21,033 nucleotides of DNA from a virus. Of the stretch, positions 2,726 through 10,149 are shown piece by piece (position 1 is the stretch's first letter; each line of letters begins with the position of its first letter). A program made the translations under genes and the position numbers. The stretch spans positions 1 to 21,033 of the IMG/VR virus record IMGVR_UViG_3300010401_000086. One strand, given 5' to 3'. Below the pieces are notes generated by a model. That model ran no database searches. It was given only the letters and a program-made list of their open reading frames with translations, and had not been told where the DNA came from.

Positions 2726-3025
2726 ATGATCGACCTCATCACCATCCCGCGCTTCTGCACATTGACCGGTTACACGGACGATGCGGTGCGCATGAAGATG
2801 GCGAGCGGGGTCTGGCTTGAGGACTCCGTATGGATCAAAGCACCCGACAACCGTATCCTGATCAGCATACGGGGGTTCGAAACATGGGCCGCGGGCCAGG
2901 CGTCCGAGTCGTCAACGGTGCGATCCAGATTGACTTCCGCTGGCGAGGCGAGCGAAGGCGTGAGCGACTTCGCCTCGCACCGACGAAAGCGAACCTCAAA
3001 TACGCCGCCCGACTCAAGGCGATAG
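2726..3025 (+). CDS. Xis-like excisionase (recombination directionality factor)
   Basis: From the ATG at 2726 the product begins IDLITIPRFCTLTGYTDDAV and continues GVWLEDSVWIKAPDNRILI, then IRGFETWAAG. This is the pattern of small phage excisionases (DUF1233-like): an N-terminal helix-turn-helix, a GxW..xxxWxxAPD wing, and a final helix ending in W. Such proteins bend DNA at the attachment site and turn integrase towards excision. The recognisable domain ends near residue 60; the remaining 40 residues are low-complexity and overlap int by 142 bases in another frame, so the tail may be a weakly constrained by-product. Directly upstream of int, as expected. Confidence 0.72.
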   Translation: MIDLITIPRFCTLTGYTDDAVRMKMASGVWLEDSVWIKAPDNRILISIRGFETWAAGQASESSTVRSRLTSAGEASEGVSDFASHRRKRTSNTPPDSRR

Positions 3026-3981
3026 TCGAGCACGAAATCACCATCGGAACATTCGACTACGCGACGCACTTCCCACGAAGTGTGCGCGTTCGCCATCGGG
3101 TTACTGTCGGCACACCCCTGAATATCTCACTGCTCGCCTATGTTGATTCGCTCGCTTCCGAGCTCGAACCCGAGACCCTGAAGAAGTATCGCTTTGATGC
3201 AGAGACGGTGGCGGGTTGGTTTGAGCCAGGCGAGACCCTGAAGACGCTGACGCGCCCGAAGGTGCGAGACGCCATTGCGAAACTCGACCTGTCGAAGAAG
3301 CGCATTCTGAACCTGCTCACGCCGCTGCGCGGTGCCGTGACTCGAGCGGCAGACGACGGCGATCTGCCAAGCAACCCGCTCGCGAAGCTCACCATTCGTA
3401 GACTGCGCAAGCCAGATCGGGACAAGCCGCGACCGTTCACCCCCGCCGAAGTGGATGCCCTGGCGCGGACCCTGCTCGGGGACCTATGGCTTGCTTGGGC
3501 GTGGATCGGGCTGAGTCCGGGCGAGGTGATCGGGCTCGAGAAGCGGGATGTGGACCTCGATGGAGCGAGGCTGCGCGTTGAGCGCGCCGTACGCGTTGGC
3601 CGCGAGAAGGCGCCTAAGACGGTTGCGCGAGCTCGCACAATCTCGCTGCTTCCGCCCGCGATCGCCGCCCTGCGCCGGCTCATGCCGGAGAACGAGGGCC
3701 CCATGTTCAGAAACCCGAACACGGGCGAGCGCTGGCATGAGGATCGGGGGTTAGCACGTGCCTTCCGGATCGCCTGCAAGGCTGCTGGCGTGCCCTACCG
3801 GCCGCCCAAGCATCTAAGGCACACCTTCGCCTCGTGGGCGCTCAGCTCGGGCGAGAACCCGCTATGGGTCGCCAAGCAGATGGGCCATGAGGACACCACG
3901 ATGATCTTCAAAGTCTACGGGGAGTGGATTCCGAGCGTCGATCCGCTCGCCGGCCAACGCATGATTGCGAAGGCCGGATGA
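2884..3981 (+). CDS. int: Tyrosine-recombinase integrase with DUF3596 arm-binding domain
   Basis: The 365-residue protein starts MGRGPGVRVVNGAIQIDF, the standard beginning of the DUF3596 arm-type DNA-binding domain (GxxxRERL, PTKANLKYAARL, GTFDYATHFP). This supports the ATG at 2884, with a GGGGG stretch 8 bases upstream, over the in-frame ATG at 2830. A core-binding SAM-like domain follows, then the catalytic domain. Visible catalytic residues are Lys in the beta-hairpin (APKTVARART), the HLRHTFAS box with Arg, GH in KQMGHED, and Tyr in KVYGEWIP. Box I reads WIGLSPGEVIGL, where the family normally has GLRxxE, so the first catalytic Arg appears to be Ser (codon AGT). Reads towards the adjacent attachment region. 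Confidence 0.93.
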   Translation: MGRGPGVRVVNGAIQIDFRWRGERRRERLRLAPTKANLKYAARLKAIVEHEITIGTFDYATHFPRSVRVRHRVTVGTPLNISLLAYVDSLASELEPETLKKYRFDAETVAGWFEPGETLKTLTRPKVRDAIAKLDLSKKRILNLLTPLRGAVTRAADDGDLPSNPLAKLTIRRLRKPDRDKPRPFTPAEVDALARTLLGDLWLAWAWIGLSPGEVIGLEKRDVDLDGARLRVERAVRVGREKAPKTVARARTISLLPPAIAALRRLMPENEGPMFRNPNTGERWHEDRGLARAFRIACKAAGVPYRPPKHLRHTFASWALSSGENPLWVAKQMGHEDTTMIFKVYGEWIPSVDPLAGQRMIAKAG

Positions 3982-4044
3982 TGTGCCCTCGCCGTGCCTT
4001 ACCCGAGACTACTGCACACGGATCAGCACGGTGACTAAGGCACA

Positions 4045-4062
4045 AATGACGTCCATGTCATT
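4045..4062. repeat. Short inverted repeat next to the attachment core
   Basis: AATGAC (4045-4050) and GTCATT (4057-4062) form a perfect 6-base inverted repeat with a 6-base spacer, ending 6 bases before the tmRNA-like core. It lacks the G+C stem and T-run of a terminator. It could be a binding site for Xis or integrase; this is inference. Confidence 0.4.
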
Positions 4063-4068
4063 GATTTA

Positions 4069-4093
4069 TGGTGGAGGCGGGGGGAATCGAACT
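4069..4093 (-). other. Attachment core resembling the 3' end of a tmRNA gene (ssrA)
   Basis: Read on the minus strand, this ends TTCGATTCC-CCCCGCCTCCACCA: a T-loop (TTCGATT), the acceptor 3' strand GCCTCCA and a CCA tail, as at the 3' end of proteobacterial tmRNA genes, a known integration target. Upstream on the minus strand the T-stem no longer pairs (GGCAG against CCCCC), and no tmRNA body, tag-peptide frame or 5' half is present, so this is only a shared core and not a working RNA gene. The exact core length needs the host sequence. Confidence 0.65.
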
Positions 4094-4355
4094 GCCGGCC
4101 GTGGGCCATATCGCCGCAATTACAGGCCACTCTCAGGCCCTCGATGCCCTCCAGGTGCCTTAGCGGTCGGTGAAGTGGTAGGCCGCCATGGCTTCTATTC
4201 GCTCGTACTCGTCCGGGTGCGCGGCAAGAGCACCCTGCGCTACATTCGAGCCTGACCCCGCTGCTTGCGTGAAGGGTAACGCCCGAGGACTTCAATACGG
4301 CAGAGCCTTCGGGATCGCGCAGGCGGCGGGGCCACGCAGCGCAGTATCAAAATAG

Positions 4356-6477: not shown

Positions 6478-6797
6478 GGCGTCACCACCGGCGGTGCCAC
6501 GACGGTCGAGGATGTCGTGGTCGTGCTGCTGGTACTCACAGGCGTATTCCACGATTGACCGGCATCGCTGTAAGTCTGGTACACAAGCTTGAGGAACCCG
6601 AGTACCGCGACGAATACGATAGACCCAAAACCCGTCGCCTCAAGGCTGCGATCCTCTTTCGAGAGCGTGGTGTACCAGTGCACAAGCACCATGGAGAGCC
6701 AGACCGACCATATGAAACAGGCGATAAGGAACGAGCGCGGGAAGATGCGGAAGCGGTCAATCGCCTCTGCCCACTTCAGGATGAGATCGCGGTTCAT
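6474..6797 (-). CDS. Two-segment membrane protein, candidate holin (107 aa)
   Basis: Starts MNRDLILKWAEAID at 6797 in an ATGA overlap with the upstream DUF5675 gene (6794-6797), which argues against the longer version from 6839. Two hydrophobic segments are visible, residues about 22-40 (FLIACFIWSVWLSMVLV) and 55-70 (GFGSIVFVAVLGFLKLVY), followed by a disordered tail rich in Thr and Ser. The size, topology and position next to spanins fit a holin, but no holin family motif is recognised. A Ser/Thr tail is unusual for a holin. Confidence 0.65.
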   Translation of the reverse strand: MNRDLILKWAEAIDRFRIFPRSFLIACFIWSVWLSMVLVHWYTTLSKEDRSLEATGFGSIVFVAVLGFLKLVYQTYSDAGQSWNTPVSTSSTTTTSSTVVAPPVVTP

Positions 6798-7237
6798 GCG
6801 GCACTCTGGATGGAGAATATGTGCGTGCCGTCTTCCCATGGCAGCATTGCGTAGAATCGATTGATGGCGAGTCGTGATCTGCCGATAGTATCCGCCTCAT
6901 CGTAACGGTCCATGCCGAGCGCGATGCAGCCGCGCAATTCGATGGTCTGATTCGCTACGTGTATGAGACATGCCGTCCGACCTTGCTTTCCTGCGGGCAC
7001 AGCATAGTGATAGACGCCGAGAGCTTCGTTCACGAGCGCGAAGGATCTCGGATGCGCTTCTGTGTCGTGTTTCTCCAGACGGTACGTGCCGACAGGGATG
7101 CATGAGCGTCCGGGTGTGCCGCCAATTGGACCGGGGAGCCAGGGGCGCTCCAGCGTCTGAAACAACTGCTCTGCGACCCGTATCGTGCCGAGCGTGCAGA
7201 CCCCATCGTCCTTGTCGCGCGTCAGGAAAAGGTTCAT
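6794..7237 (-). CDS. DUF5675 family protein, copy 1 (147 aa)
   Basis: The protein starts MNLFLTRDKDDGVCTLGTI, then LFQTLERPW, IPVGTYRLEKH, YHYAVPAG and ACLIHVANQTIELRGCIALG. This is the DUF5675 pattern: TLG, TLE(R/D), (I/C)P.G.Y.., and a terminal H-x-(G/A)N....GCIxxG. The H and GC residues resemble the HxG and GCIR motifs of L,D-transpeptidase-like folds, so a cell-wall role is possible but unproven. The start is set by the ATGA overlap with the preceding gene (7234-7237) and a GAGGCA site. It lies upstream of the spanins where an endolysin is expected. A divergent second copy is at 9667-10149. Confidence 0.85.
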   Translation of the reverse strand: MNLFLTRDKDDGVCTLGTIRVAEQLFQTLERPWLPGPIGGTPGRSCIPVGTYRLEKHDTEAHPRSFALVNEALGVYHYAVPAGKQGRTACLIHVANQTIELRGCIALGMDRYDEADTIGRSRLAINRFYAMLPWEDGTHIFSIQSAA

Positions 7238-7560
7238 GCGTGCCTCAGCAGAAACTGCACGACCGCGCCTGCAGCGATGAGCGCACCGCCCCACGTAGCC
7301 AGTTTCATGTTCACACTTGTCAAGCGCTTTTCCATGTCAGCCTTGTAGACATCGAATGCGAGGCGTTGGGTTTCTACGAAATCATCGAACTTCTCGCGGG
7401 TTACGGACTGGTCGGCCGCAGTCTTGAGTCGCGCCGCTTCGCCGTTCAGATTTTCAAGCCTCCACTCCAGATATTTTGTGCGCACCTTGAGGGCGGCGCG
7501 TTCGCCACGCCAGCGTTCCTCGAGCACGGCGAGGCGCACATCGTATGACTTCTTCCCCAT
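7234..7560 (-). CDS. Coiled-coil protein with C-terminal membrane anchor (108 aa)
   Basis: Residues 1-80 are charged and helical (LAVLEERWRGERAALKVRT and LENLNGEAARLKTAADQ), predicted coiled coil. Residues about 86-106 form one hydrophobic segment (LATWGGALIAAGAVVQFLL) and the protein ends RHA. The layout recalls haemolysin XhlA-like phage membrane accessory proteins, but I cannot confirm that family. Its stop overlaps the start of DUF5675 copy 1 by ATGA. A lysis-control or envelope role is inference from position. Confidence 0.65.
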   Translation of the reverse strand: MGKKSYDVRLAVLEERWRGERAALKVRTKYLEWRLENLNGEAARLKTAADQSVTREKFDDFVETQRLAFDVYKADMEKRLTSVNMKLATWGGALIAAGAVVQFLLRHA

Positions 7561-9085: not shown

Positions 9086-9670
9086 TCATGCCGTCAACCG
9101 CTTGAACTGAAGCGCAAAGTCACATCTGGGCAAACGTGTGTCGTGCGGATCGATGCCCGTTGCGTCTTCCGGTTTGAACTTCCATCCGATCCAGCAGCGC
9201 CGGCTTTTCGTTTCATACCTGAATCCGCTGTAGATGCCCTGCCAGACAAAGTACCAGCCGCCCTCGCCATCCTGCATCTCGTGATCGAGGCCGATCGAGT
9301 AGATGCGAGCAGGTCGAAACTTCGGACTCAGCACCGGCACATAGCGGAGATTGTTCACCGGATTACGGAAGGCTGACCAAGCGAAAATTCGCTTGGCATC
9401 CGGCCAGTCCCCGGTTTTGTTCATCCACCAGGCTTGCGCCGCATCGCCGCCGCGAAGGCCATCGATGCCGTCTTCCTCGTTTGACCATAGGAACGCCCAC
9501 CACGGGAACTGGAGCAATGCCCGGCCGGAACCTGAGGTTCGTACGCGATACGAGCCCATGCAGACGAGGAGCGGAATGACGATGAAGCCCAGAAGAGCAA
9601 GCGGCAGAAAGATCGCAATCCGCAGGAGCCAGACCGGCAGTGAGAACAGGATGCGCAGAGCGAGGTTCAA
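9086..9670 (-). CDS. Membrane-anchored phage protein, DUF7338-like (194 aa), TTG start
   Basis: The frame begins at TTG (9668-9670), overlapping the previous stop as TTGA, with AGGAGG 9 bases upstream in the end of the DUF5675 gene. The N-terminus is strongly hydrophobic (residues about 5-37, LRILFSLPVWLLRIAIFLPL and LLGFIVIPLLVCMG), probably one or two membrane segments. A Trp-rich domain follows: WWAFLWSNEEDGIDGLRGG, WAFSAFRNPVNNLRYV-like residues and GWYFVWQGIYSGFRYE. I recall this pattern from a phage family of unknown function (DUF7338, name unverified). It lies between the two DUF5675-containing parts of the lysis region. Confidence 0.7.
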   Translation of the reverse strand: MNLALRILFSLPVWLLRIAIFLPLALLGFIVIPLLVCMGSYRVRTSGSGRALLQFPWWAFLWSNEEDGIDGLRGGDAAQAWWMNKTGDWPDAKRIFAWSAFRNPVNNLRYVPVLSPKFRPARIYSIGLDHEMQDGEGGWYFVWQGIYSGFRYETKSRRCWIGWKFKPEDATGIDPHDTRLPRCDFALQFKRLTA

Positions 9671-10149
9671 CCCGTAGCGCCTCCTGAATCCTCAATCACC
9701 AGCTGAAGATCGAAGGTTGAGCCAAGAATGGTGCGGACTTGATTCATCGCATCAAGGGAGCGCTCCAGCTTCCATCCGAGTTTCGTCTTCACGCGCTCAG
9801 TGCCGACCCCAATGCTATCGATCGCCTCGAAGGCGTAATTCGCCGCGCGAATCGTGACCCGCGAACGACATGCCCCATTGCGGCTCTTGGGCACCTCGTA
9901 GGGCATCTGGAAGACATCCAGAGCGCTATTCGAGACGATGTAAACGCGCTCCCCGGAAGGCAGCTTGTGCGGCTCCAGCCGGAATACTCCGGCAGGCAGG
10001 CAGGAAATAAAGGGTGCCCCGGCTTTGCCGCCATGGGCGTTTGGCACGAAGGGCTTCTCAATCGTGTAGAGCTTGTGGGAATCGCCTATCGTGAGCGTTC
10101 CCAGCACGCAATCAGGCGCGACGGTGTCCCGTTTCAGGGTCAGCATCAT
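9667..10149 (-). CDS. Divergent DUF5675 family protein, copy 2 (160 aa)
   Basis: The protein starts MMLTLKRDTVAPDCVLGTLT and aligns with copy 1 along its length: LYTIEKPF against LFQTLERPW, CLPAGVFRLEPH against CIPVGTYRLEKH, and YEVPKSRNGAC against YAVPAGKQGRTAC. At the terminal motif it reads VTIRAANYAFEAIDSIGVG where copy 1 has LIHVANQTIELRGCIALG, so the conserved His is Arg and the Cys is Ser. If those residues are catalytic, this copy is inactive and may be structural or regulatory. It has a further 40-residue C-terminal helix-strand unit. The stop overlaps the TTG start of the next gene. Confidence 0.75.
   Translation of the reverse strand: MMLTLKRDTVAPDCVLGTLTIGDSHKLYTIEKPFVPNAHGGKAGAPFISCLPAGVFRLEPHKLPSGERVYIVSNSALDVFQMPYEVPKSRNGACRSRVTIRAANYAFEAIDSIGVGTERVKTKLGWKLERSLDAMNQVRTILGSTFDLQLVIEDSGGATG

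Follow-up and report, generated by a model that had tools for sequence, protein, structure and literature searches.

The analysed stretch, referred to here as the window, is the whole of an IMG/VR record of 21,033 bases. An excisionase gene, an integrase gene and a putative phage attachment site (attP) lie side by side in it:

2726..3025 (+), excisionase gene overlapping the start of the integrase gene (PHROG 9668, E 1.6e-15 for 2735-3022; start codon taken from the sequence)
2830..3981 (+), integrase gene, a tyrosine recombinase of the DUF3596 / IntBPP-1 subgroup, 383 amino acids (PF12167, PF00589, PHROG 1)
3984..4001 (-), putative arm-type repeat of the AAGGCA-n6-GGCA type, reversed relative to the sister phages
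4035..4043 (+), further arm-like copy, CTAAGGCAC, inverted relative to the other two copies
4069..4092 (-), putative attP core, a 24-bp tmRNA 3' end directly after the integrase gene (partial match to Rfam RF00023, E 0.0098, below the gathering score)
4145..4162 (-), second copy of the putative arm-type repeat, at a spacing of 161

The excisionase frame is intact. Upstream of it, a 164-residue protein (2226-2720, +) joins an excisionase-like HTH_17 helix-turn-helix domain (PHROG 1840) to a C-terminal region similar to the phage endonuclease VII / HNH families PHROG 1035 and 26577.

The integrase frame could also begin at a later ATG, at 2884. The N-terminus of its product matches PF12167 (Arm-DNA-bind_2, formerly DUF3596) above the cut-off with E 3.4e-22, which bears out the family assigned to it in an earlier sequence-only reading. 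The protein also matches PF00589 (Phage_integrase; E 4.8e-8, 33.4 bits against a cut-off of 27.1) and PHROG 1 (integrase; E 1.8e-46). Solved structures sought by sequence gave weak matches only. An AlphaFold model built from 34 sequences has a catalytic domain with the tyrosine recombinase fold, and its Foldseek matches include Tn1549 Int, XerA, lambda Int and XerD. Integrases of the same subgroup from Bordetella phage BPP-1, Pseudomonas and Stx phages likewise combine Arm-DNA-bind_2 with a catalytic domain, and they share with the window a weakly conserved first His of the catalytic pentad and a gene placed beside the att site. The full catalytic set R-K-H-R-H-Y is absent from the window integrase, in which the first Arg (Arg I) is Ser229 and the first His is Lys327. 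The protein is thus a member of the subgroup by descent, with an atypical active site.

Serine at the Arg I position

Box I of the window integrase is encoded by ATC GGG CTG AGT CCG GGC GAG and reads I G L S P G E (W-I-G-L-S-P-G-E with the preceding Trp). The relevant residues are as follows:

3514..3516 (+), AGT codon for Ser229, Arg I position of box I (sequence, alignment, tblastn census)
3541..3543 (+), Lys238, Trp in the other 131 relatives, near box I (alignment; two base changes)
3616..3618 (+), catalytic Lys263, invariant (alignment)
3628..3630 (+), Arg267 in the loop of the catalytic Lys, Gly in 127/132 (alignment; loop placed from the strands of the predicted model), a candidate Arg I substitute
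3808..3819 (+), box II, K327-H328-L329-R330, with Lys at the position of the pentad His and the catalytic Arg330 (alignment)
3883..3888 (+), Gly352-His353 of the catalytic set (alignment)
3916..3918 (+), Tyr363, the nucleophile, invariant (alignment)

The earlier reading had claimed that the box I arginine is replaced by serine and that the codon, AGT, is one base from CGT, and it had proposed aligning homologues to see whether a different Arg takes the catalytic position. We took as relatives the best 80 loci each from scans of IMG/VR and of GTDB genomes, 160 loci in all, and aligned 132 non-identical DUF3596 integrases, the window's included, with MAFFT; one of them, L174, is a fragment. Both claims were upheld: Ser229 falls exactly in the Arg I column, which holds Arg in all 131 aligned relatives and Ser only in the window, and a single base separates the codon at 3514-3516 from CGT. 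No other Arg can occupy column 229, because box I aligns with close relatives with zero gaps and is anchored by Glu232 and Asp240, which flank the column and are invariant across the 132 proteins; an alternative alignment that puts another Arg there is thereby ruled out. Going by this alignment, the substitution of Ser for Arg I at residue 229 of this DUF3596 (IntBPP-1) phage integrase is genuine.

A tblastn census of the gathered loci (315 matches, some repeated) gave Arg 312 times, His twice and Ser once, in the window; no Ser-bearing clade appeared among these matches. Both His matches come from one truncated gene, in Janthinobacterium sp. 344 (L143, 5998-6789), which reads GLHTSEL and is the only other DUF3596 integrase without Arg I among the loci searched. 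It lacks the N-terminal part, its match to a full-length relative beginning only at residue 116, and it is probably a prophage remnant. A degenerate scan of IMG/VR DNA for a WTGLSTSE-like Ser motif returned three chance matches, none in an integrase frame. The five IMG/VR sisters, 54-59% identical to the window integrase, all keep Arg I: L169/G003 (58%), L002/G006 (57%), L003/G007 (55%), L172/G004 (54%) and the fragment L174/G005 (56% over its part).

The claim that the remaining catalytic residues are present held in large part. Glu232, Lys263, Arg330, His353 (with Gly352) and Tyr363 are invariant in the alignment and are all found in the window, but the first His of HxxR is not, the motif reading KHLR. 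Most relatives have Tyr at position 327, so neither the window nor its relatives have a canonical HxxR, and the first His of the pentad is known to be weakly conserved in the IntBPP-1 subgroup (PMC8138268). Other near-invariant columns have also changed. Asp201, conserved in 130/131 relatives, is Arg in the window, and all 131 aligned relatives, drawn from the best 80 loci per database, have both Arg I and Trp238 where the window has Ser and Lys. Five such radical changes add a basic residue or a His (D201R, W238K, G267R, Y327K and Q328H).

Three outcomes had been offered for the serine, namely an inactive enzyme, reliance on another residue, or a base error, and this proved to be the right set, although it can be narrowed. 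One miscalled or misassembled base in this single metagenome contig would be enough if the true codon is CGT, and no near-identical contigs were found against which to check codon 3514-3516 (the search may mask near copies of the record itself). Consensus errors are rare, however, and since Trp238Lys (by two bases), Asp201Arg and Gly267Arg accompany the serine, an error alone is a quite improbable explanation.

Could the protein have become a DNA-binding regulator instead? The phage regulators MrpR, YopR and SroF are among its Foldseek matches, as weak ones, and MrpR and YopR of prophage SPbeta share with it a phage tyrosine recombinase fold whose losses include a catalytic Arg. MrpR, a repressor that no longer acts as a recombinase, keeps only 3/7 catalytic residues; its replaced residues include catalytic Arg and His, for which it has Ser, Val and Asn (PMC10516654). 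The window integrase, by contrast, has not lost most of its catalytic residues: it keeps 5/7 identical, and its gene adjoins an excisionase gene and an attP with a preserved core. Repurposing as a regulator like MrpR is accordingly very unlikely.

Orientation of the putative attachment site

The tmRNA 3'-end copy in the putative core is perfect over 24 bp. As in the window, the same core lies just 3' of the integrase gene in the sisters L002/L177, L003/L181 and L169/L175, and it is also found in more distant relatives. In all relatives with this core near the integrase gene the two run in the same direction; in the window the core is reversed.

The AAGGCA-n6-GGCA repeats around the core are spaced 150-161 apart across the window and its sisters. 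In the window the two full repeats read AAGGCAC, where L175 and L177 have AAGGCAAC; both window copies are reversed relative to the integrase gene, whereas in the sisters that have the core, core and arms read as the gene does. We infer from their position and repetition that they are arm-type sites, and they look as if they had changed together with the integrase.

The attP regions compared were window 3984-4163, L175:1828-1994, L177:2378-2559 and L181:4928-5105. When reverse-complemented, the flank of the window next to the integrase gene matches the distal flank of the sisters, with a score of 42 against a shuffled mean of 17 for L175. None of 2000 shuffles reached 42; the same-orientation control scored 31, probably helped by a near-palindrome. 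The other attP flank gave no inversion signal, and the sequence beyond attP has the same orientation in the window and L177. These comparisons point to a local inversion of attP, whether of the entire site or only a portion of it; the core is firmly inverted, the evidence for the arms is good, and that for the site as a whole is suggestive.

Beyond the core, seen from the integrase gene, come late phage genes (tail, tape measure, head-tail connector and spanin). Phage genes thus flank attP on both sides, which indicates that the contig is excised or virion DNA and not an integrated prophage.

Maintenance of the gene and the question of catalysis

Among tyrosine recombinases Arg I comes near to being a hallmark residue, and its mutation severely impairs lambda Int, Flp and vaccinia topoisomerase. 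Is the window gene then decaying? A seven-taxon codon model rejected omega = 1 on the window branch (LRT 762), although synonymous change is saturated and the omega estimate itself is therefore unreliable. All 383 codons are open. The gene shows neither the broken frame nor the neutral rate of a pseudogene.

It has nevertheless changed a good deal. Its end branch in the protein tree is long (0.75, against 0.62 for the sister L174). At columns conserved in at least 95% of sequences 11 positions changed in the window and one in L169, whereas at less conserved columns the changes number 25 and 29. An excess of change confined to the window lineage is not a clean description, since L174 equals the window in departures from conserved columns of the catalytic part (19 each); those of L174 are milder (mean BLOSUM62 score 0.5, against -1.4 in the window; p 0.04).

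Slow neutral decay over a long time fits these data poorly. Omega = 1 is rejected, and in a drift simulation that started from a sister gene and ran to a target of 6 to 11 conserved-column changes, 27% to 9% of runs stayed free of stops and, with an assumed indel share of 5%, 3% to 0.1% were free of indels as well. On this sequence evidence the gene is unlikely to have drifted for long without function. Excisionase gene, integrase gene and attP are an integration module kept intact by selection, and inactivity, one of the outcomes offered earlier, is disfavoured in its long-standing form because purifying selection goes together with an intact excisionase and an intact attP. A recent hit on the integrase is another matter, as it would leave the same signs of maintenance.

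We put at roughly 0.4 the probability that the integrase is still an active recombinase in which a different basic residue does the work of Arg I. The enzyme's arm and core domains would bind attP, and strand cleavage and rejoining at the tmRNA core would fall to Tyr363, with Lys263, Arg330 and His353; the different residue would supply the positive charge that the scissile phosphate normally receives from Arg I. Several observations are in keeping with this. Selection is detected on a frame that drift would rarely leave open, the core is perfect, the arm repeats lie at sister-like spacing and have changed as if with the integrase, and the excisionase is intact in a lineage that looks temperate, given a repressor-like gene in the related phage G002. 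The predicted fold is as confident as that of an Arg-bearing sister (pLDDT 88.3 against 87.8), with about 95 around box I and nearly identical secondary structure, and of the radical changes at other near-invariant columns five add a basic residue or a His.

There is also precedent. The natural exceptions that we found described are few: members of the IntCTnDOT group lack Arg I, a downstream Arg substituting for it functionally in the CTnDOT integrase, and IntDes integrases have their first Arg at a shifted position (PMC8138268). The window integrase resembles IntDOT in having no Arg at box I but belongs to a different subgroup. IntDOT, a well-studied Bacteroides integrase and the subject of Kim et al. 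in 2010, reportedly has Ser259 at box I and a substitute Arg285 two residues before the catalytic Lys287. The window has Ala261 two residues before Lys263, so IntDOT's own solution would not be available to it.

The candidate substitutes gained by the lineage would instead be Arg267, in the Lys263 loop, and Lys327, at the position of the pentad His. Arg267 is a candidate only, as it could simply contact the DNA backbone, and Lys327 is shared with L004, a relative that keeps Arg I. A working integrase with neither Arg I nor an Arg at the IntDOT position, catalysis passing to one of these two newly acquired residues, is a somewhat less probable proposition than continued recombination as such. 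Continued activity must also be set against the lack of any Ser-bearing relative in the searched sets, and thus of a conserved clade showing that Ser works, and a gene that had lost its activity very recently would show every one of the same signs of maintenance.

Such recent inactivation is the nearest competitor. On this view the integrase worked until a CGT to AGT change deprived it of Arg I; it would now bind DNA but have little or no catalytic activity, and the phage would be lytic or reliant on a helper integrase. One base change is enough, Arg I is otherwise universal in intact relatives (the exception, L143, being truncated), the known Arg I mutants are impaired, and an intact frame, excisionase gene and attP are the leftovers to be expected of a recent loss. 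On the other hand, this account needs a coincidence with the other radical changes near the active site, tolerated under selection, and IntCTnDOT shows that a recombinase can make up for a missing Arg I. An active enzyme and a recently inactivated one are nearly equal readings, since the signs of maintenance all agree with either.

If the integrase is active, it represents a second, independent solution, arrived at in a phage integrase group, and shows how the active site can be rewired; with its 58%-identical Arg-bearing sister it forms a natural pair for comparing active sites. If it is dead, the contig records a temperate phage that has only just lost the ability to integrate.

Two further phages, L167 and L168 (G001 and G002), are about 70-74% identical to the window phage in structural genes; no tyrosine recombinase was found in their records, of 17 kb and 39 kb. 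Besides its repressor-like gene, G002 carries a large glycosyltransferase/methyltransferase gene and a radical SAM gene. In the window itself, genes of PHROG 1501, a family of unknown function, occur twice about 2.4 kb apart (6794-7294 and 9667-10149, both on the - strand), as a duplication or as two acquired copies.
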